Shown: in pieces, positions 1 through 40,188 of the stretch
Position numbering within the stretch: the first letter of the stretch is position 1
Layout: each line of letters begins with the position of its first letter
Origin: Nocardioides sp.
GTDB taxonomy: Bacteria; Actinomycetota; Actinomycetes; Propionibacteriales; Nocardioidaceae
Length of the DNA: 40,188 nt
NCBI GenBank assembly: GCA_031177735.1
Contig: JAPSKJ010000002.1
Span: 1-40,188 of the forward strand
Direction: 5' to 3'
Program-made: the position numbers and the translations under genes
The notes under the pieces: model-generated
What the model saw: only the letters and a program-made list of their open reading frames with translations
What the model was told of the DNA's origin: nothing
Databases searched by the model: none

Positions 1-2
1 GC

Positions 3-40
3 GGCCCCAACCGTCACCGTGCAGGGTGACAATCGGGGCC
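3..40 (+). terminator. Imperfect stem-loop downstream of hicB-like gene (across the circle junction)
   Basis: GGCCCC(3-8)/GGGGCC(35-40) and GTCACC(13-18)/GGTGAC(25-30) pair perfectly around a 4x4 internal loop and 6-nt loop; lies between hicB (ends 40018) and the ORF at 69. Confidence 0.45.
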
Positions 41-68
41 TTGATCCACTCGACAAGGGAGTGAACCC

Positions 69-536
69 ATGCGTAAGCCTATCCGCCTCCTCGCCGCCAT
101 CGTGGCGGCCGTTCTCGCCGTGAGCATCGTCGGCCCAGCGACCGCAGAGGACGAGTCGCCGGAGCCCGAACTCGTCCTTGAGTCGGCCGATACCGAGTTC
201 GACTTCGACTGCGTCTTCGGTCTCCGCAGCCGTGTCGTCGCCGTCGCGTCCTACGAGGGCGAGCACCGCTTCAAGTGGGAGTCGTCGTGGTCGATCTCGA
301 AGCGCCCCCTCGATCGTGGCGAGCGTCAGCGTGAGGGCTGCTCGGACCGTGAGCGCTACCGGCCGCTGGGCACCGCCGAGGAGGAGCGCGCGTTGTGGCA
401 GGCGGAGCGGTGGCACGTCCAGTGGGTCCGTCGCGTGTACGACGACCGCCTCGAGAGCAAGCAGCGGATCATCGACCGGAAGCAGGCGCGGATCGAGCGG
501 CTGCGGGAGCGGATCCGGGACCTGCGTCGGCGCTGA
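69..536 (+). CDS. Small secreted protein with signal peptide and C-terminal charged coiled-coil
   Basis: MRKPIRLLAAIVAAVLAVSIVGPATA signal peptide; Arg/Glu-rich C-terminal helix; 155 aa; start preceded by AAGGGAG. Confidence 0.7.
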   Translation: MRKPIRLLAAIVAAVLAVSIVGPATAEDESPEPELVLESADTEFDFDCVFGLRSRVVAVASYEGEHRFKWESSWSISKRPLDRGERQREGCSDRERYRPLGTAEEERALWQAERWHVQWVRRVYDDRLESKQRIIDRKQARIERLRERIRDLRRR

Positions 537-2969: not shown

Positions 2970-3608
2970 CTACGGTCGGCCGGTGATGGTGCAGGTGACG
3001 ACGGGCTCGGCGTTGACCTGGCAGCCGAGCGCTTGGAGAAGGCCGATCACCCACTCCTGGGTCGCGTAGGCACTGAGATCAGGCGTCTCGCCCGGGTCGC
3101 CCTTGGGGCCTTGCGGACCGGCGGGGCCGGCAGGCCCCGGGGGGCCTTGGGGTCCGGGCGGACCTTGTGGGCCAGTGGGACCGCGGGCGCCGTCGGACCC
3201 GTTCGCGCCGTCGCTGCCGCTGCGTCCGTCGACCCCGTCGAAGCCGCGCGGGCCCTGGGGGCCGACTGGACCCCGCGGACCCTGCGGCCCGGGCACGATC
3301 ACCGTGTCGCCACCCTTGTCGATCGACACGTCACCCGGATCCCCGCCCAGAGTGCGCACGTAGCGGGCGAGGGCACGTTGGCGCTGACGGAGCTCGCGGG
3401 TCTCCTCGCGCAGCCGTTCCGCGTCCTCGTGGAGTCCTCGCCGGTCAGCGATCGACTCCGCGTCACGCTGCTGCAGCTCGTCGTTCTCCTGAGACACCAC
3501 GACCGCGGTGCCGACAGCGAAGATGGCGACCACGGTGAACAGGACGATCAGCAGCCACTTGCCGACCTGCATCGCCCGATCGGACGGTCGGAACCTGAAC
3601 CGAGACAC
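2970..3608 (-). CDS. Membrane-anchored coiled-coil plus collagen-like (G-X-Y) protein
   Basis: N-terminal [23 protein letters not shown], coiled-coil, then [16 protein letters not shown]...[26 protein letters not shown]. Confidence 0.8.
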
Positions 3609-9264: not shown

Positions 9265-11018
9265 CAGTCGTCCTGGACGTGGGAGTGGTAGCGCGGGTAA
9301 AACTCGATCTCGGACTTGGCGGTCTCCGTACTGGTGCAGACGGTGAAGATCTGCATCTCGCCTGGGCTGAACCGGTGCGACCCGAACGATTCGCAGAACA
9401 GGTCGATGCACACGCCGTCGGAGCGGTTCGTCAACTTGCCGCCCCAGACGCTCGGGCGAGCCGCGCCGAGCTCGGGCGAGCGGATCTCGACCCAGGTCAG
9501 CGACTCGACGCCGTGGTATGGATTCTTGACCCACGTAAGAGCGCCGTCGTCGAGGCTGAACAGCCACACCTCGTCAACCGTGATGGACGCGGTTGCCGTT
9601 ACGAACTCCACTTTGACCCTCTGATCGCCCTCTACGTCGAGCGTCGGAAGCGTTACGGTGCCTAGGGGGATGATCTGGTAGCCGGACGTGGTGGAAAGTG
9701 ACGCCGACCCGGCCTGCTTCACGGAGAAGAACGACGCCCCACTGGCGGCGATACCGCCGACAGTCCACGGAAGGGTAGCCGCGGCAGTGACGTTCATCCG
9801 CGCAACCAGCGCGTAGGTTCCCCTGGTGAACACGTCCGCCGGGATCTCGAAATGCATGGGCGTACTCAGGTCGTTGCGCGCCCCTGACACCATCGCCGTG
9901 TCTGCCGTTACGGTGGCGCTCATGGTGCGGTAGGTCCGCATCGCAACCTGCCAAGCCGTGTTTCGGGACGTGTAAACGAGCACGTCGGCCCCCAGGGCGG
10001 ACGAGTCGTAGACGCGAATCGCCGCCTGGGTGGGCGCGGACCCGCCGACCGACGCCGTTCGACTCTGCTGGCGGCCCGCCGGGATGCTGCTGGTGCGGGC
10101 GACCTCGTGGACGCGGAGGAAGGCGGTCGCGCTGCCGCCGCTCGGGATCTCGATGTAGACCAGCAGATTCGTGAAGGTTCCGCCTCCGACAACCGGGGCG
10201 TAGTAGTAGTGGTCAACGGCGCCCGCGATTGAGGACGTCCTAGTCGCTGCGAGGGTCAGCGGATACTGGCCCGAAGTCGAGTGCGCTTCGTAGTAGGCGC
10301 TGTAGGTCCCCGCATGAGACGCCTGGACGGTGATACGGAGGTACGTGTCGCCGCCCATCGAGGCTGGAGTGGGGAAGTTTCGAGAGAGGGCGATCGCTGC
10401 GCTGCTGGCCTTCGTGCCCTGCCCGTAGACGTAGCCGCCCGTCGACCCCGAAGACGTCGCAGTGAGCCCCAGGAACGACGCCGTCCAGTTGGTGAACGAC
10501 GTACAGGCGTCGATGACCGTCACCGTCGCCGACCCGGACGACAGCGCCGGGACGACCGTCTTCTCCTCCGTCCGCGCGAACGGCAGGCAGGTGAGCGTCA
10601 GGAGGAAATAGCGGTTCTCCTGCAGCACCTCATCGTCGTCCCAGCCCTCGTAGTCGCGGTCGAGGCGGGCGTTCACCACGTCGAACACGGTCACCGCGGC
10701 GTTGTCCGTCGGCGGCGTCCACACCAGCGGCGACTTCTCCGTCGCCAGCACCTCAGCCATCAACGCAGCCTCGGCCGCCGCAATCGCGTCACCGTCGACA
10801 CCCGACAGTCGCAGTTTCATCGTGATCTCGCGGTTGTCCCACCGCTGCGTCACCGCCAGGGCGCCATCGGTGAGGAGCGACTGCACGATCTCCACGACCG
10901 GCTCCGGGTTGCCGAACGACGCCCCCTCCGCGACCGCCTCGATGAGCCAGCCAGCGTCCGTCGGCGTCTCCGACACGAAGTCGAGCGCCCCCCAGGTGAG
11001 ACCGTGCTGTTGCGTCAC
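9264..11018 (-). CDS. Minor tail protein (distal-tail-like)
   Basis: 584 aa immediately after tape measure; [32 protein letters not shown]. Confidence 0.65.
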
Positions 11019-14000
11019 TTCCGCGCCCCTCTGTTGCCGTTCCGCCCCGCGTTACCGGCGCCGCGCTTGCGGCTGTCACGGTCCCGCTTGTGGTTGTCGT
11101 TGTTGCGCCGATCCGCGGCCTTGATCGCCCGCTCGATGCGCTCCAGACGCGTCACCAGTGGCTTGATGTCGCGCCGCTCGTCCCGCAGCCGGTCCCCGTA
11201 GGCCGCTGTGCCCGCCAGCGTCCCCACGTCGCGCAGGACGCTGTTGCGCTGGTTGTAGAGCCGCGCGTACTCCGCCAGCTCCCGCCGTGACAGGTCTGCG
11301 AACGCCTGAGCGCCCGCGAGACCGCCCTGGGACAGCACCTCGGCCAGCGCCGGACCGTCGAGACCCTTGCGGCGCAGCGACTGGATCGCCTCGCGCATCT
11401 GCCGCGCCTCAGCGAGGTCGTTGCGCAGGGCCGCCGTCGCGGCGCCAGGCGAACCAGACGCGAACTCGCTCGACCACGGGTCAACCTCGCCGAACAGCTC
11501 GGACCGGATGCCGCTCTGCACGTCCGAGGACAGCGACTTCATGCTCTCGATGACCCGGTCGCGCTGCTCGCGCTCGCGCTGCAGCGCCTTCTCCGTCTCG
11601 CGGAGCTCGCGGTTCAGCCGCTTCAAGCCGCGGGCTGCGTCCGAGGCGTCACGATCGTCCCGGCCGCCACGGTTGTCGCGCGTGACCACCAGGCCGCCGT
11701 CGGCATAGCCGGGCAGGTCGCGCATCCCCGGCAGGAAGCCGTAGCGCGAACGGAGGAACGCAGCGTCGCGGCGGACGATCGGCTTCGGGAGCACCACCTC
11801 GTCACGGTGGACGACGCCGGCGACCTCGTTGCGACCACCCGGGCCGGTCCAGCCGCCGGACGCGAACCCGTCGCGAGGGCCGAGGTTGCTGGCGGTCTGC
11901 CGGCGGACGACGTTCACGAACACGGTCTCGTCGGCGATGCTCGAGAGTGCTCCCCTGGTCGACGCCGCGGCCTGCTGGGCGTTCGACTTGACGTCGATGC
12001 GGGGGGTGGCGGTGATGTTGCTGACCCACGCCAGGTCGTCGCCGGCGCCGCGGATCCTCGAGCGGCCCGTGTCGATCGGGCCGGTGTCGAACTTCGGCTG
12101 GATCCGCATGTTGTTGATCCGGTGGCCCTGCATCTGTACCGCCGCCAACGCGTGCTCGCCGGAGCGGACTGCGCCCCACAGGTTGTTGAACTCGCGGATC
12201 GTCTTCCGGCTGCCGTTCGCAAGCTGCTCGAACACCCGAGCCGCCTGCGGGCCGAGCCGGTCGAACACCTCCTGCAGCGCCGCTTCGTCCGCACCGCGGT
12301 TGAGCGCCACCCGCCAGTTCGACGCCATGTTCCGAGACGCCTCAGCCATGCGAGACATCTGGCGCATCAGCTTGTCGAGGCTCAGCGACGGCTTCTCGAT
12401 CGCATCGCCCAGGGTGTAGAACGCGTCCGCGGCCTCCTGCGCGGCCTCACGCCGCGCCCTGTACGCCTCGACCTTCATCACCTGTCGGTCGTGCTCGCGC
12501 AGGGCGACCTCGGCAGAGAGGGCGGCGGCCCTCTCCTCCACGAGTGCTTCCTCGATCACTTCGCGCTGCTTCTTCGCCTTGGTGAACGACGACTCGATGC
12601 CGAACCACTGTTCGCCCATCGCCTGCACCCAGTCGAAGCCCGCGGTCGGACTCGTCTGATCCTGCAGGAAATCCCAGAACCCAGTCGTCTGGACATTCTC
12701 GGAGAACCGCGCCATATCGTCACCGAGAGCCGCATACTCCGTGCGCATCGACTCGATGTCGCCGGACCGGATAGCGGCGTTGGACCGCTCGATCGAGTCG
12801 GCCACCCGCTCGTTCGCGGCCGAGAAGTCGAGGGCGAGACCGATACCGGCACCGACTGCCGCACCATACGGGTTGACCATCGATCCGATTAGGCCGAGCA
12901 TCGCCGTGTTCTGGATGCCGAGCGACTGGCCCGCCTCAGTGGTGGCGATTGCGAACGCGGCTGCACCAGCCGCACCTACGCCGGCAGTCTTGCCGAACGT
13001 CGCCATCGTCCCGCGGGTGCGAGCGGCTGCCTCGTTGAAGCGGCGCATCTCACGCTCAGACCGGGCGCCCGACGTGGCGGCGATCGTGCCCATCGTGCGC
13101 AGGTCGGGGATCAGGTTCCGCACCGACGTCCGCGTGGCGTTGAGACGCTGCGCGAGCGGGATGACGCCGCCAGTTGCGCCCGCTGCGCCCGCCGTCCCCG
13201 CACCGCCCGGCATCGCACCGCGGACGGCCGACGACGCCCCGATGAAGCCCGTCCGAGCCAGCAGGGCCGCGGTCATGCCGAGCGCCCGATTGAGGACCAT
13301 GAACGCCGCGGCCATCGCGAACAGCCGCGGACCCACCGGGGAGTCGGCGATCATCGAGATGCCCTCGGCGACCGCCTCGAGCGTCTTGAGCACTGGGCCG
13401 CCGAGAGGGGCGATGGCCTGCACGATGTCGAGGCCCGCCTGCGCGATCGCGACGAGGGTGTCCTGCACCTGCGCGCCGTTCTCGCGGATGTAGTCGACGA
13501 ACGCCTGGAAGCCCTCCGTCTGGGCCAGGCCACTCGCCCACTCGTCGAACCCGGACGCGACGCCCACAAGCCACGACGAGAAGTCGTCGTTGAGCGGGTC
13601 GAACGCCATCCACAGCTCGGCCATCGCGTGCGTGACCGACCCGATGACGCTCGAGACGTCGACCAGCGTCTCAGGGAGCTCGGTCGACAGGAACTCGAAG
13701 AACGGCCGCCAGCGGTCCGTCGTCAGCGACTCCGCGCCATCCGCGACCAAGGCGCCCCCGACCTCGGAGACACCCTTGATGATGTCCTCCACGCGCGGGG
13801 CGAGGCGGGTCAGGTGCTCCAGCGTCTCCGTCAGCCCCGGGAACCAACCCGCGGCAGCCGTGTCGCGCATCTCGGTGAGGACCGGCTGGAAGTCCTGGAA
13901 CGCCGCGACGAACGTGCGGGCCTCCGGCGCGAGACCACGCAGCGCCTCGCGGGCCTTCTCGAGGTTCTCCGTCGTCGGGTCCAGCTGGTAGGCGTCGATC

Positions 14001-14401
14001 GCCTGCACCGCGTCCGCGACTCCGTTGAGCGCGATCATTAGCGTCCCGCCGGCCATGCCCGCAGCGGCGAGCTGGTTGGCGAGACCCGTCACCGCAGGAA
14101 CGCCCACAGCCGCGACTGGGACCAGGCCGGGACCGAGCAGCGCGGCAGCTTCAGCGAGCAGCCGCAGCCGACCGGAGTAGCGGTCGATGTCCGCGCCGCC
14201 GCGAACTGCCGACGAGCTCAGACGGTCGATGTCGCCGCTCGACCCCGACAGGGAGCCCCGCAGCCGACTGCCGGACCCGTCGAGGTCGCTCAGCGCTCGG
14301 TCGAGCATTCCAGCGGCGGCAGCAGCCCGCGCCATGCCGGTGGTGAAACCTGCGTCCTCAAGACTCAGGCGCACACTCTCGCGACGAACGGCCACGGGCA
14401 C
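11015..14401 (-). CDS. Tape measure protein
   Basis: 1128 aa, longest gene; N-terminal [22 protein letters not shown], Gly/Ala-rich hydrophobic middle, follows tail chaperones. Confidence 0.9.
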
Positions 14402-14449
14402 CCCCTCGGTTCGCTAGCAAAGTGACGGAGGTCGGCTTACGCTCACGAC

Positions 14450-14773
14450 ATGGACGAGACCGAGGCACGGACCTCGACGCCGCCGGGCTGGTATCCCCAC
14501 CCGGTCGAGGCGCCCACCGTGCAGCGTTACTGGGACGGCTCGAGGTGGACGGACGACGTCGCGCCACTCGGTGCCGCGCCCCAGCCGCGGTCGAACGGTC
14601 TGAGCATCTGGACGATCGCCATCGGCGTCGCCCTCGGTGTGGTCGCGGTGATCGTCGGGCTCGTCGTCATCAACGGGTTCGCCGACGAGAACGAGACCGA
14701 CGACCTGATCGCGTGCGTCTCACGCAACAACGAGCTGCGCGAGCAGGGGGAGCCGACCTACCCCTGCGACTGA
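14450..14773 (+). CDS. DUF2510-domain single-pass membrane protein
   Basis: PPGWYPHPVEAPTVQRYWDGSRWTDDVAP (DUF2510-like) followed by TM IWTIAIGVALGVVAVIVGLVVIN; opposite strand to all flanking tail genes. Confidence 0.8.
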   Translation: MDETEARTSTPPGWYPHPVEAPTVQRYWDGSRWTDDVAPLGAAPQPRSNGLSIWTIAIGVALGVVAVIVGLVVINGFADENETDDLIACVSRNNELREQGEPTYPCD

Positions 14774-15854
14774 GGCTTGGGGCGCTTCCGGGCCCGGGCC
14801 CTTCGGCGCTCCATCTCGTCCTCGGTGAGCTGCTGAATGTAGACGTGACGACCGTCTGAACGACGCGGCTCGTCCGGGCGGTTCTTCAGTTCCTCTTCTT
14901 CCGCCTCGTCAGCCTCTCGGCGGATACGTTCCGCCAACTTCGCGCCCGCGCACGTCGGGCAGACCTCGGTGCGCGTGGTGAACCCGACGGACGGGTCCAT
15001 CGTCAGTGAGCGGTGGAAGCCGCACGAGCAGACGCCCGCATCGTGTTCGGCGAGCGCGGCCATCCAGTTCCACTCCTCGTCGTCCCACTCCGGCTCGCGG
15101 GTGACAACGGTCCAGCCGGTCAGGTTGCCGTCGGCGTCGAAGTGCTCGTGTCGCTCGGACGGCTCCCAACCAAGCAGTCGCTTCCGGCTGATGCCGAGCG
15201 ACCGCGCAAGGGTCAGGGTGTCGCGGGCGTCCCGGTCGTGGACGAGGAGTTCGACGAGGCTTTTGGGGCACGGGCACCCTCGCCTTCCTGCAGCGACAGG
15301 ACCAGCGTCACGATGTCCTTGACATCACCGGGCGCGGCGTTGTTGAGCAGGTACTGCCAGTCCTCCTCGGTGACCGGCTCGTCGTTCCACGACACGACGT
15401 AGCGGAACAGGTCGTCGGCGAGGGCCTGAGCGTTGCAGAACCCGTAAGCCAGCCGCTCGTCGAGCGGGTGGAGGATCGGGCGGCCGTTCTCGTCGCGGTC
15501 GGTCTCACGCGGCGGGTTCGCATCCACCCAGAGTCGCCACTCGCCCGCGGGGATCGCCTGCAACCGCAGCGTCCCCTCATGCTCGCGCATCTGCGCGTAC
15601 AGGGCCTCGAGCTCGGTGTCGATCTCCGCGACACGTGCGCGACGCGGGTCGCCGACGCGGGTCGGCTTGCCGTCCGTCTCGCCGTCGTCGCCCTGGACGC
15701 GGGAGCCGATCTGCATCAGCAGGTCGGCCTTTTCCGACGTCAGCTCCTGCACCTGCCCGACAAGCTCCTGCGCGAGGCACAACGTCTTCGTGCGGGTGGG
15801 GAGACGCTTCGCAGCGCCGGCGGCGGCACGCAGCTCGCCGAGGGACTTGCTCAT
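14758..15854 (-). CDS. Tail assembly chaperone -1 frameshift fusion product
   Basis: After CCCAAAA, -1 frame reads SLVELLVHDRDARDTLTLARSLGISRKRLLGWEPSERHEHFDADGNLTGWTVVTREPEWDDEEWNWMAALAEHDAGVCSCGFHRS... to stop at 14758. Confidence 0.8.
15213..15854 (-). CDS. Tail assembly chaperone (0-frame product)
   Basis: 213 aa between major tail and tape measure; MSKSLGELRAAAGAAKRLPTRTKTLCLAQELVGQV. Confidence 0.8.
   Translation of the reverse strand: MSKSLGELRAAAGAAKRLPTRTKTLCLAQELVGQVQELTSEKADLLMQIGSRVQGDDGETDGKPTRVGDPRRARVAEIDTELEALYAQMREHEGTLRLQAIPAGEWRLWVDANPPRETDRDENGRPILHPLDERLAYGFCNAQALADDLFRYVVSWNDEPVTEEDWQYLLNNAAPGDVKDIVTLVLSLQEGEGARAPKASSNSSSTTGTPATP
15261..15267 (-). promoter_or_regulatory. 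Programmed -1 ribosomal frameshift slippery heptamer CCCAAAA
   Basis: 0-frame ...GCC CCA AAA GCC...: canonical X_XXY_YYZ; joins two ORFs with chaperone-like C-terminal half. Confidence 0.8.
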
Positions 15855-15930: not shown

Positions 15931-16452
15931 TCAGGCGACGATCTCGCCGTAGACCACGTCGGCGTTCGGGAAGAACATCTGCGAGATCTCGAACTCGGCG
16001 AAGTCGTCGTCGCCGGACTGGACGCGGTTCTGCCGGCCCAGGTAGCCCGTCCACGCCTCGTAGTGCTGGCCCACGGCGCCGGCGGTAGCGAACGCGACGC
16101 CCTTGCGGACCACGAGGATGCCGGTCGCGCCGTCGGTCAGCGCGGCCTTCGCCTCGTTGTCCGGGTCCGCGTCGTCGCCCTGCGGGTCGTAGACGTAGCG
16201 CAGGTCGAACGCGCTGATCTCGGTGCGGCCACGCTGCGGGAGCGTGATCGTGGTGCAGATCCGGTTCGGAGCCGAGCCGGTCGCCTCCGTGGCACCCGGG
16301 GTGAACGGACGCAGGAAGCACGACAGGTCGACGGACGAAGCGGCGTTCCACTCCGTCGCCAGGCTGATCGAGTCGAGGTCGGCCGCGGTGCTGATCCAGC
16401 GAACCGCCAGGTTCCCCAGGACCGGGGTCGCCTCCGGGAAGAAGGTGCTCAT
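15931..16452 (-). CDS. Major tail protein
   Basis: 173 aa directly upstream of chaperones; MSTFFPEATPVLGNLAVRWISTAADLDSISLATEWNAA. Confidence 0.75.
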   Translation of the reverse strand: MSTFFPEATPVLGNLAVRWISTAADLDSISLATEWNAASSVDLSCFLRPFTPGATEATGSAPNRICTTITLPQRGRTEISAFDLRYVYDPQGDDADPDNEAKAALTDGATGILVVRKGVAFATAGAVGQHYEAWTGYLGRQNRVQSGDDDFAEFEISQMFFPNADVVYGEIVA

Positions 16453-16456
16453 CGGG

Positions 16457-16711
16457 TCACTCCTTGTTGTCGGTGAGGGTGTTGTCGGCGGCACCCTCGT
16501 CGGGCGTGACCGCCTTCTTCTCGGCCGCCTTCTTGGCGACCGATGTCTTCGGCTTGACCGGGCGGCCGTTATCGCGGCGAGGCTTCACCGGGCGGCCGGT
16601 CGGGTCAGTGGCGTCGCCGTCGACCGTCTGCAGCTTGCGGCGATCGGCGAGGGCGCGGGAGACGGGTGCGACGATGCCGTTGTCGTGGCGCACGAGTACG
16701 AAGTCGGGCAT
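16457..16711 (-). CDS. Hypothetical small basic head-tail region protein
   Basis: 84 aa MPDFVLVRHDNGIVAPVSRALADRRKLQTVDGDATDPTGRPVKPRRDNGRPVKPKTSVAKKAAEKK. Confidence 0.65.
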   Translation of the reverse strand: MPDFVLVRHDNGIVAPVSRALADRRKLQTVDGDATDPTGRPVKPRRDNGRPVKPKTSVAKKAAEKKAVTPDEGAADNTLTDNKE

Positions 16712-35949: not shown

Positions 35950-36194
35950 TGAAGTCCTCCGATCCTCACCCCTAGTAGACGGGGCTGTCAACAGTGCAAG
36001 GACATATTGACACGGTGCAGTAGACGCCTGTCAAGAAGTTACACGTGCGTAGTTATGCAGGTCAGGGCAGTAGCGGCATACTCGGTGCAACCACCTAGTA
36101 GACGATTTGACCCTCGACAGTGGCCGAACGCCGGTAGACGGTGACCCGATCGGGCCAGTTGCCGGCGCTAGCTCGGCCAGGAAGCGTGTTCCCC
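35950..36194. promoter_or_regulatory. Divergent immunity promoter/operator region
   Basis: GTAGACG at 35975-35981, 36020-36026, 36098-36104, 36134-36140; leftward TTGACA boxes at 35986-35991 and 36029-36034; rightward TTGACC at 36107-36112; AT-rich relative to surroundings. Confidence 0.7.
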
Positions 36195-36539
36195 GTGAGC
36201 AAGATCGGCGACCTGATCCAGGCCTACCAGGACCAGCACGGCACTTCTGACCGTGCGCTGGCGAGCCGGATCGGCGTCACCGCGACGCTCGTGGGGAAGT
36301 GGAAGCGCGGCACGTTCGTCGAGCTCCCGCGTAAGGACCGCATCGAGGCGCTGAGCGAACAGATCAACGTCTCCTACTCGGTCCTGCTGCTCGCCTTCCT
36401 CGACGACATCGGCTACCTGCGCGAGGAGAGTGATGGCGATGACCGAAACGCCGCCCCCATGAACATGTCGGACCGCTTCCGTATGGTCGCCGGCGAACAG
36501 GAGTTGCGGGTCGCCAAGCGGCCGAAGAAGCGTGAGTAG
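36195..36539 (+). CDS. HTH immunity repressor
   Basis: VSKIGDLIQAYQDQHGTSDRALASRIGVTATLVGKWKRGTFVELPRKDRIEALSEQINVSYSVLLLAFL. Confidence 0.8.
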   Translation: MSKIGDLIQAYQDQHGTSDRALASRIGVTATLVGKWKRGTFVELPRKDRIEALSEQINVSYSVLLLAFLDDIGYLREESDGDDRNAAPMNMSDRFRMVAGEQELRVAKRPKKRE

Positions 36540-36554
36540 ACATGGGGAGGTCGG

Positions 36555-37007
36555 ATGGCGTCGTTCTCACCGTGGCGCCTTCTACGGAACCTCTCCCACA
36601 TCGACCTGCACTTCACCGACGACGACGACATCCTCGATGGCGCGCACGCCTGGTACTATCACCGGCTGCGCGCCATCGTCATGGACAAGCGCCTCAGTCA
36701 AGTCGAGCGGCGCAGCGTCCTGGCGCACGAGTTGGGGCACGTCATCCGCGGAGACGTGCCGTGCGGGGATGATGTGCTGGACTGTCGGCAGGAGTCGGTG
36801 GTCGACCAGTGGGCCGCCCGGAAGCTCATCACGCTTGACGCGCTCGTGGATGCGCTGCGGTGGTCCGACGACCCTCACGAGGTGGCCGACTGCCTGTGGG
36901 TGACAGTTGACCTCCTCGAGGTCCGACTGCGGCATCTGCACCCTTCGGAGCGGGCGTGGATCAGGAGACAACTAGACCGGTCGACCGATCCGGGACCTTG
37001 GCCCTAA
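36555..37007 (+). CDS. ImmA/IrrE-family metallopeptidase
   Basis: RRSVLAHELGHVIRGDVPCGD...RQESVVDQWAARKLI: HExxH-type zinc motif, adjacent to repressor. Confidence 0.88.
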   Translation: MASFSPWRLLRNLSHIDLHFTDDDDILDGAHAWYYHRLRAIVMDKRLSQVERRSVLAHELGHVIRGDVPCGDDVLDCRQESVVDQWAARKLITLDALVDALRWSDDPHEVADCLWVTVDLLEVRLRHLHPSERAWIRRQLDRSTDPGPWP

Positions 37008-37125: not shown

Positions 37126-37377
37126 ATGGAAGACAAGCCCGTATCAGTGACCATAGTCGGCGCGGCGTTCCTCTGGATCGCCGGACTCGTCCTAGCGGCC
37201 GTCTACAGCATCCACGGCTACCGCGGCACCGACGTTTGGGCCTTCATTGCCGTCGCGGCTGGCGCGACGCTCACGATCCGGCACTTCCTGATTCGGCTCG
37301 CGTGCGTGCTGCTCGAGCGGGAGCGCAACGCGTTCCTGCTCGGCCAGGACGTACAGCGCCTGCGATCAACACGCTAG
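37126..37377 (+). CDS. Two-TM membrane protein, possible superinfection-exclusion factor
   Basis: 83 aa MEDKPVSVTIVGAAFLWIAGLVLAAVYSIHGYRGTDVWAFIAVAAGATLTIRHFLIRLACVLLERERN. Confidence 0.6.
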   Translation: MEDKPVSVTIVGAAFLWIAGLVLAAVYSIHGYRGTDVWAFIAVAAGATLTIRHFLIRLACVLLERERNAFLLGQDVQRLRSTR

Positions 37378-38570
37378 GCCCAGCGGCCACCGCGGTCGAG
37401 CTTCTGAACGGCGTCCACAAGCATCTTGTCGGCGGCGTGCTGGTAGCGCATCGTCACGCTGATCTGGGAGTGGCCGAGGATCGCCATGGCGACCCTGATG
37501 TCGACCCCCTCGGCGACCATGAGCGTCCCAGCCGAGTGCCGAGCGTCGTGGAGCCGGTAGTGCCTCACCCCTGCCTGTTGCAGCAGCTTGCGCCAGCGCC
37601 CGGCGTCGACAGAGGGGTCGATCGGACGGCCGTCCTCGAGCGTGAAGACGAGTCCGGAGTCGGTCCAGAACGAGCCTGCGGCCAGACGTCTCTCGTTCTG
37701 CGCCTTCCGGTGCGCCTTGAGGTTGTCGAGCAGCGATGGCGGTAGCGGGATGTCGCGGCGGCTCTTGCTGCTCTTGGGTGTGCCGAACACAATGCCCCGG
37801 CCGGTGACGCGCATGAGGGTCTGCCGGATGCGGATGATGCCCGCGTCAAGGTCGACGTCCTCCCAGCGCAAGCCCAGTGCCTCGCCTTGCCGCAGGCCGA
37901 GGGCGAGGGCCACGTTCCACCTGGCGGCGTTCCACTGCCCGCGGCAGGCGTCGAGGATCCGGTCGACCTCGACCTCGCTCATCACGTCGAGTTCGCGCTC
38001 CACCCGAGCCGGCGCCTTCATGGCGTCGCGGCCGGCGGGATTGGCGCGCAGCTTCTTGCGGCGCACGGCCTCGGACAGTGCCGCAGACAGGATGCGGTGA
38101 GTCTGGTGGATGGTGTTGGCTGACAAGGGAGTGGGCTCAGCCTTGGTCGGGTTGCCTTCGTCGCGGAGCCGGTCCCAGGCGTCTTCGATGTGCTCGGGCG
38201 TGAGCCTGTCGAGCCGATGGTGGCCGAGCAGCGGGATGATGTAGTGGTTGACCTTCGCGCTGTATCCAGCGAGCGTGTAGGGCTTGGCGTGCCGAGGGAG
38301 CACGCGCTTGTACCAGTAGTTCATCCACTGCTCGACGGTCATCGCCTTGCCGTCAGCGGGGAGCTCGTCCGCCGCGACCTGCTGAGCGAGGTCCCGCAGC
38401 TTCGTTGCCGCGGCGCTGCGCGTGGCTGCTGACACCTTGCGTCGCACTGGTCGGCCATCGCGGCGGTCCACGATGAGAGCGCCGATCCACTTGCCGCGGG
38501 AGGCGTCGAAGTAGACCGAGCCGTCGCCGTCGGAGCGGCGCTTGCGTGAATCCTTGGGCCTCTCAGCCAT
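37374..38570 (-). CDS. Tyrosine integrase
   Basis: ALGLRQGEALGLRWEDVD, HDARHSAGTLMVAEGVDIRVAMAILGHSQISVTMRYQHA (R-H-R-H-Y). Confidence 0.95.
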   Translation of the reverse strand: MAERPKDSRKRRSDGDGSVYFDASRGKWIGALIVDRRDGRPVRRKVSAATRSAAATKLRDLAQQVAADELPADGKAMTVEQWMNYWYKRVLPRHAKPYTLAGYSAKVNHYIIPLLGHHRLDRLTPEHIEDAWDRLRDEGNPTKAEPTPLSANTIHQTHRILSAALSEAVRRKKLRANPAGRDAMKAPARVERELDVMSEVEVDRILDACRGQWNAARWNVALALGLRQGEALGLRWEDVDLDAGIIRIRQTLMRVTGRGIVFGTPKSSKSRRDIPLPPSLLDNLKAHRKAQNERRLAAGSFWTDSGLVFTLEDGRPIDPSVDAGRWRKLLQQAGVRHYRLHDARHSAGTLMVAEGVDIRVAMAILGHSQISVTMRYQHAADKMLVDAVQKLDRGGRWA

Positions 38571-39434: not shown

Positions 39435-39647
39435 ATGAGGACGCGGGAAGTCATCAAGAAGATCAAGGCCGAGGCGAAGGCCAAGGGTGTCACTTGGGAG
39501 TTCGTCCGGGCGGGCGCCAACCACGACGTCTACAGCCTCGGCGGCACGATCATCCCGATCCCGCGCCACACTGAAATGGGCAACAACATGGCTCGCGTGA
39601 TCTGGAAAGAGTGCGAGGGCCAACTCGGAGAGGGGTGGTGGCGGTGA
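39435..39647 (+). CDS. hicA: HicA-like toxin (mRNA interferase fold)
   Basis: MRTREVIKKIKAEAKAKGVTWEFVRAGANHDVYSLGGTIIPIPRHTEMGNNMARVIWKECEGQL; 70 aa, NHD catalytic-His context. Confidence 0.75.
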   Translation: MRTREVIKKIKAEAKAKGVTWEFVRAGANHDVYSLGGTIIPIPRHTEMGNNMARVIWKECEGQLGEGWWR

Positions 39648-40018
39648 GGCGGTACGCCGTGGAGGTCGAGCGCGACGGCCGATTCTGGCTGGTCCGCGTG
39701 CCCGAAATCGACCGCGCCACGCAGGCCCGACACCTGCGGGAGGTGGAAACCATGACTCGCGACCTCATCTCGATCATGGAAGACGTCGCCCCGGATTCGT
39801 TCGAGCTCGACGTGCGACTCCGGCTCCCGGAAGCCGTACAGCGCCACCTTGAGGAGTCGAAGCGACTTCGGGATGCAGCGGCGGAAGCGAACCGGAGATC
39901 GGCAGAGGAGGCTCGAGCGGCTGCCCACGACCTCGTTGCCTTGGGCCTCCCGATGCGCGACGTAGGTGCCGCGCTTGGCGTCTCACACCAGCGCGCACAC
40001 CAGCTCGTGAACTCCTGA
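39644..40018 (+). CDS. hicB: HicB-like antitoxin with C-terminal HTH
   Basis: RRYAVEVERDGRFWLVRVPEIDRATQARHLREVETMTRDLISIM...HDLVALGLPMRDVGAALGVSHQRAHQLVNS; GTGA overlap with hicA. Confidence 0.75.
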   Translation: MRRYAVEVERDGRFWLVRVPEIDRATQARHLREVETMTRDLISIMEDVAPDSFELDVRLRLPEAVQRHLEESKRLRDAAAEANRRSAEEARAAAHDLVALGLPMRDVGAALGVSHQRAHQLVNS

Positions 40019-40061: not shown

Positions 40062-40188
40062 GCGGCCCCAACCGTCACCGTGCAGGGTGACAATCGGGGC
40101 CTTGATCCACTCGACAAGGGAGTGAACCCATGCGTAAGCCTATCCGCCTCCTCGCCGCCATCGTGGCGGCCGTTCTCGCCGTGAGCAT
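40062..40188. repeat. Exact 127-bp terminal duplication of bases 1-127 (circular assembly overlap)
   Basis: Identical sequence gcggccccaaccgtcacc...gttctcgccgtgagcat at both ends. Confidence 0.97.

Follow-up and report, generated by a model that had tools for sequence, protein, structure and literature searches.

A slot between the tail-assembly chaperone genes and the tape measure protein (TMP) gene of related Nocardioidaceae phages houses antisense genes for small membrane proteins and lipoproteins of eight unrelated families. The slot is described here from a 40,188-nt contig (JAPSKJ010000002.1 of assembly GCA_031177735.1, Nocardioides sp.), hereafter the window, where it is filled by a DUF2510 membrane-protein gene at 14450-14773. 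The reading of this gene as autonomous (a moron) and seated in an exchangeable slot is strongly supported. The fuller statement, that it is expressed in the lysogen and serves superinfection exclusion aimed at a TMP-dependent step, has in our judgement a slightly better than even chance of being right.

An antisense gene in the chaperone-TMP gap

The slot gene of the window and its surroundings comprise the following elements.

14450-14773, plus strand: slot gene from the list of open reading frames, 107 aa, ATG start, antisense to the late operon
14483-14584, plus strand: DUF2510 domain (GWYPHP...RYWDGSRWTDD), residues 12-45, 44.4 bits in a PF10708 search of the genome
14615-14671, plus strand: transmembrane (TM) helix by hydropathy, residues about 56-74, the only one
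14438-14443, plus strand: predicted leaderless-type -10 box TACGCT, its first T 12 nt before the slot ATG
14396-14449, no strand: divergent spacer of 48-54 bp between the leftward TMP start (14395 or 14401) and the rightward slot start

A first-pass annotation of the sequence had proposed an antisense DUF2510 membrane-protein gene at this place, and the protein does match the Pfam family DUF2510 (PF10708) with 42.8 bits (E 4e-11), above the curated cut-off of 24 bits. Its C-terminus is a short acidic tail that holds two cysteines. When genes were called by codon usage on both strands of the whole window, the slot gene was the only rightward one within 1200-24300, in agreement with the claim that it alone breaks the leftward run, and its 3' end overlaps the stop of the T-like chaperone frame (14758) by the 16 bp given there. 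The same annotation had the TMP gene begin at 14401; the TMP gene does adjoin the gap, and a start at 14395 is likelier because relatives begin MAVRRES. The GC content by codon position (0.66/0.51/0.92) matches that of other genes of the phage. An AlphaFold2 model places a helix at residues 53-76 with low confidence (mean pLDDT 69).

The protein had also been called host-like, and DUF2510-type matches were found in 91 of 149 related genomes, though the PF10708 search gave none outside the slot gene in the metagenome-assembled genome (MAG) to which the window belongs. Two stand-alone genes (L021:9885-10172 and L022:9455-9751, both on the minus strand) share the build of the window protein, namely DUF2510, one TM segment and a short two-cysteine tail; a recombinase-like reading frame lies near that of L022. 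Single-sequence scans of IMG/VR gave no close relatives of the slot protein, the tail tube or the chaperone.

The loci of relatives were found by alignment of the TMP N-terminus, with searches covering genus, order, family, genome contigs and viral contigs. The resulting census holds 59 TMP loci from Nocardioidaceae genomes and viral contigs, some of them near-copies, so that the loci are not all independent. In most relatives the gap is closed, with 0-75 bp from chaperone stop to TMP start, while the occupied gaps that could be measured span 292-536 bp. An antisense gene stands in the gap in 14 of the 59 loci, the window included, and starts 30-77 bp before the TMP gene. The arrangement is thus not unique to the window, and related phages use the same slot. 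Merging of the near-identical pairs L018/L040 and L019/L041 leaves 12 distinct genes, which fall by BLAST into the eight families; three genes, from two genera, encode DUF2510.

Window: DUF2510 protein with one TM segment
L023 (L023/L028), Nocardioides kribbensis prophage: DUF2510 protein with two TM segments
L113/L156, another genus of Nocardioidaceae: DUF2510 protein with two TM segments
L018/L040: lipoprotein
L083: lipoprotein, unrelated to the preceding one
L019/L041: protein with three TM segments
L044 and L087: family with two TM segments
L154 and L155: second family with two TM segments
L082: protein with a long hydrophobic stretch
L103: protein with at least three TM segments

The slot gene is absent from L144. 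Every occupied locus holds a single gene in the slot, and the products, of 68-153 aa and with no Pfam nuclease domain, carry a TM segment or a lipobox in all 14 cases by simple hydropathy and pattern tests. The same features occur in 7 of 127 small sense genes nearby and in 8 of 35 small genes of the window itself. Conservation of the reading frame in related phages had been named beforehand as one of the points on which the proposal hung; antisense DUF2510 membrane-protein genes do stand in the N. kribbensis prophage and in the other genus, and the comparison of presence and absence suggested at the time revealed that other relatives fill this slot with unrelated antisense genes for membrane proteins or lipoproteins. 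The possibility that the frame is spurious or a degenerate insertion, raised by its shortness and its orientation against a densely coding region, is refuted on present evidence by a DUF2510 score far over the cut-off, by its codon bias and promoter signature, and by the conservation of gene class and position among relatives.

Promoter signature and turnover with the tape measure allele

All slot genes are preceded by TANNNT, the reported signal of leaderless genes in Actinobacteria (PMC3160421). Its first T lies at -12 of the start codon, shifted to -13 in L156 and to -14 in L019/L041 and L044. In the loci of the first census, the motif is absent at -25 to -6 from all 258 sense genes, and among all ATG and GTG codons it occurs at -12 in 14 of 18384 instances. 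We also scanned without bias the 1.5 kb before the TMP gene in the 59 loci for TANNNT at a distance of 12-14 from an ATG or GTG that opens a frame of at least 50 aa. The antisense strand gave 15 matches and the sense strand one. Fourteen of the antisense matches lie at -30 to -77 of the TMP gene and encode a TM segment or a lipobox; the fifteenth (L148), far upstream of the TMP gene and lacking a TM segment, looks spurious. A promoter belonging to the slot genes themselves, as read from this signature, is supported, and with it the earlier suggestions of a moron, an extra gene at a place where relatives have two adjoining genes, and of its probable independent expression.

The occupied state has turned over repeatedly, requiring at least five changes (gain, loss or swap) on supported branches of the TMP tree. 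Four phages of Pimelobacter simplex permit a closer comparison. Identity in the tail tube and distal tail genes is 91-99% regardless of the slot gene. Within a slot type, the chaperones, the slot and TMP residues 1-833 are likewise 92-99% identical; between slot types, identity is 79-86% in the chaperones, about 46% in the slot (unrelated genes), and about 76% falling to about 48% across TMP residues 1-833. In the comparison of L018:15112-16097 with L019, the TMP centre (about residues 500-833) is unalignable and the downstream flanks are about 93% identical. The genome of P. simplex ATCC 6946 carries two of the four phages (L018 and L019) with different slot genes, both near contig ends; the pairings of slot gene and TMP allele recur in two other viral contigs. 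A third TMP locus of this strain (L101) belongs to another clade and has no slot gene.

The unrelated membrane-protein and lipoprotein genes might encode alternative exclusion proteins, each inherited with its own TMP allele. We tentatively extend this to a co-inherited self/non-self pair, in which each slot protein would exclude phages with the TMP type of its own cassette, a proposal to which we give less than even credence. If true, a cassette swap would change the exclusion group of the phage, and the pair would explain how one P. simplex strain can house two prophages whose tail flanks are 92-97% identical but whose slot genes and TMP alleles differ.

Probable superinfection exclusion and competing explanations

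The favoured explanation takes the slot gene for an autonomous moron in a dedicated chaperone-TMP slot of temperate Nocardioidaceae siphophages. Its transcription would start at a leaderless promoter of its own and run, most probably in the lysogen, against a silent late operon. The product would lie in the host membrane with the DUF2510 domain inside, one TM helix, and the acidic two-cysteine tail outside, and would most likely block superinfecting phages by hindering the step at which the incoming TMP helps DNA across the membrane. Superinfection exclusion is favoured because of the position of the HK97 gp15 gene, published accounts of gp15 and Ltp, the SNIPE system, and mycobacteriophage DUF2510 genes on the repressor strand.

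A moron beside the tape measure gene is already known from HK97, where the tail chaperone frames and the TMP gene flank the gp15 gene. It occupies the same place as the slot gene, and we liken the two by position, as things that may work alike. Both gp15 and Ltp of phage TP-J34 block DNA injection; gp15 is a predicted inner-membrane protein which HK97 hybrids with the tail tube and TMP genes of HK022 escape, and changes in the TMP overcome exclusion by Ltp (PMC10883804). According to Bebeacua 2013, as cited in PMC3952083, Ltp is a Streptococcus thermophilus prophage lipoprotein with TMP identified as its target. Two of the slot families are likewise lipoproteins; the one tested has no relative by sequence in the PDB. 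The gp15 gene of HK97, an enterobacterial phage, is followed by a terminator, whereas the slot described here has a putative leaderless promoter, many unrelated families and three DUF2510 genes. SNIPE, a DUF4041 membrane nuclease, defends the cell from within the membrane during genome injection and is associated with the TMP (PMC13190303), but it is a multi-domain nuclease, unlike the small slot proteins.

The DUF2510 genes of mycobacteriophages Babsiella (gp32), Mycofy1 (gp35) and ThulaThula (gp33) lie behind the integrase gene on the repressor strand, a placing consistent with prophage expression. Their products combine DUF2510 with a TM segment and are encoded on the prophage-side strand, as in the window, and the PHROGs match of the DUF2510 slot protein is the corresponding phrog_21924, a family of unknown function; the mycobacteriophage genes sit in the integration module, however, and that of the window in the tail operon. 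In Mycofy1 (L128:3989-5124), a DUF2510 membrane-protein gene is directly followed by a gene annotated as lipoprotein LpqJ, which likewise has TANNNT at -12.

Several observations weigh against exclusion directed at the TMP. Membrane localisation suits several other functions as well, and the HK97 gp15 gene shares the strand of the late genes, in contrast to the antisense slot gene. The slot proteins show no resemblance to known exclusion or defence proteins in PADLOC, PHROGs, the PDB or fold searches: PADLOC profiles gave nothing convincing (the window protein reached E 0.044 at best, and the seven other slot proteins tested had no match), PDB searches by sequence gave no informative match for the slot proteins tested, and Foldseek found no match with the low-confidence model of the window protein. 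The linkage of slot and TMP rests on two alleles in four phages, and the chaperones co-vary with the TMP too, so that hitch-hiking with a tail-length module could account for the linkage. Taken over all occupied loci, those that share a slot family show only a weak tendency to have similar TMPs (permutation p 0.03).

The main rival holds that the slot gene serves lysogenic conversion, altering the envelope or fitness of the host without taking part in exclusion, and that the slot is just a place in the tail operon where insertions are tolerated. Chromosomal genes for DUF2510 membrane proteins are common and have no known role, two of them stand alone with the build of the window protein, and unrelated families in one slot are what a neutral landing site predicts. 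Such a site would gather soluble proteins too, whereas all occupied loci encode membrane or lipid-anchored products, and the slot and TMP alleles are linked; we regard lysogenic conversion as unlikely, if the strongest of the rivals. An abortive-infection effector that depolarises the cell after phage entry, of the type of RexB, Butters gp31 or Sbash gp31, is improbable. Multi-TM prophage proteins have been proposed for such a role in actinobacteriophages (PMC6426596, PMC7542560), and the products of Butters gp30/31 and Sbash gp30/31 are small actinophage membrane proteins expressed from the prophage, as the slot proteins probably are. These systems are encoded by two genes in a variable central region, however, with the membrane protein paired with a cytoplasmic partner, against one gene per slot here, and lipoproteins and single-TM DUF2510 proteins are unlike four-pass channels. 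Superinfection exclusion also has to be set against a mainly regulatory element, whose rightward transcription would silence chaperone and TMP expression and whose protein would be incidental. The transcript would indeed run convergently into the chaperone genes, with which the slot genes of L018 and L023 overlap by 15 and 18 bp at their 3' ends, close to the overlap in the window. Against this stand the retention of phage-like codon usage, the dN of 0.019 against a dS of 0.105 in the L018/L040 lipoprotein pair, the DUF2510 motif kept across genera and the membrane class of all products, which together make a mainly regulatory role very improbable. A holin role was considered separately and rejected: the gene is antisense to the late operon and bears its own promoter signature, and the amidase gene lies elsewhere (2.2-3.0 kb).

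Within the searchable papers, which mostly leave subscription papers outside, we found no paper mentioning both DUF2510 and phage, and none that describes an antisense slot with a leaderless promoter in which unrelated membrane families replace one another, or that reports this arrangement from Nocardioidaceae phages. The isolated odd gene becomes a predictable, promoter-marked site at which small unrelated membrane proteins can be located by position alone. The slot supplies a ready set of candidate exclusion proteins from phages that have had little study, might give a DUF2510 protein its first known role, and would allow the recognition of rivals via the tape measure to be tested directly, in a parallel to HK97 gp15 that would span a very large evolutionary distance.

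Phage genome and neighbouring genes

The tail genes flanking the slot and the lysogeny region of the window are as follows.

11015-14401, minus strand: TMP gene, 1128 aa, identified by its position after the chaperones and by homology to TMP-position genes of prophages
14758-15063, minus strand: downstream tail-assembly chaperone frame (T-like), with a syntenic homologue in L018, L019 and L020
15213-15854, minus strand: tail-assembly chaperone (G-like), with homologues in prophages
15931-16494, minus strand: tail tube protein (PF25595 Phage_TTP_16, 77.7 bits)
36141-37007, plus strand: lysogeny region with a repressor-like helix-turn-helix (HTH) gene (HTH_3, 22.9 bits, just below the cut-off of 23) and an M78/IrrE-like peptidase gene (Peptidase_M78)
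37374-38570, minus strand: tyrosine integrase (PF00589, 95.2 bits)

The TMP gene gives weak tblastn matches to annotated TMPs. Its relatives lie in Nocardioides and Pimelobacter genomes, and for this reason the host is taken as a Nocardioides-like soil bacterium, the bin itself being no proof. The integrase, HTH and M78 peptidase genes lead us to take the phage as temperate. An exact 127-bp direct repeat at the ends of the window (1-127 and 40062-40188) shows the contig to be a closed circular phage genome of ~40.06 kb binned with the MAG, rather than an integrated copy; 127 is a common assembler k-mer length.

A small TM protein gene at 37126-37377 on the plus strand, between the M78 peptidase and integrase genes, is a second candidate for a prophage-expressed membrane protein. 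Two adjoining small genes at 39435-40018 (plus strand) resemble a HicA/HicB toxin-antitoxin pair on visual inspection and have no Pfam match. The gene at 2970-3608 (minus strand), which adjoins the amidase gene, encodes a protein that has a TM segment at its N-terminus as well as collagen triple-helix repeats (PF01391).
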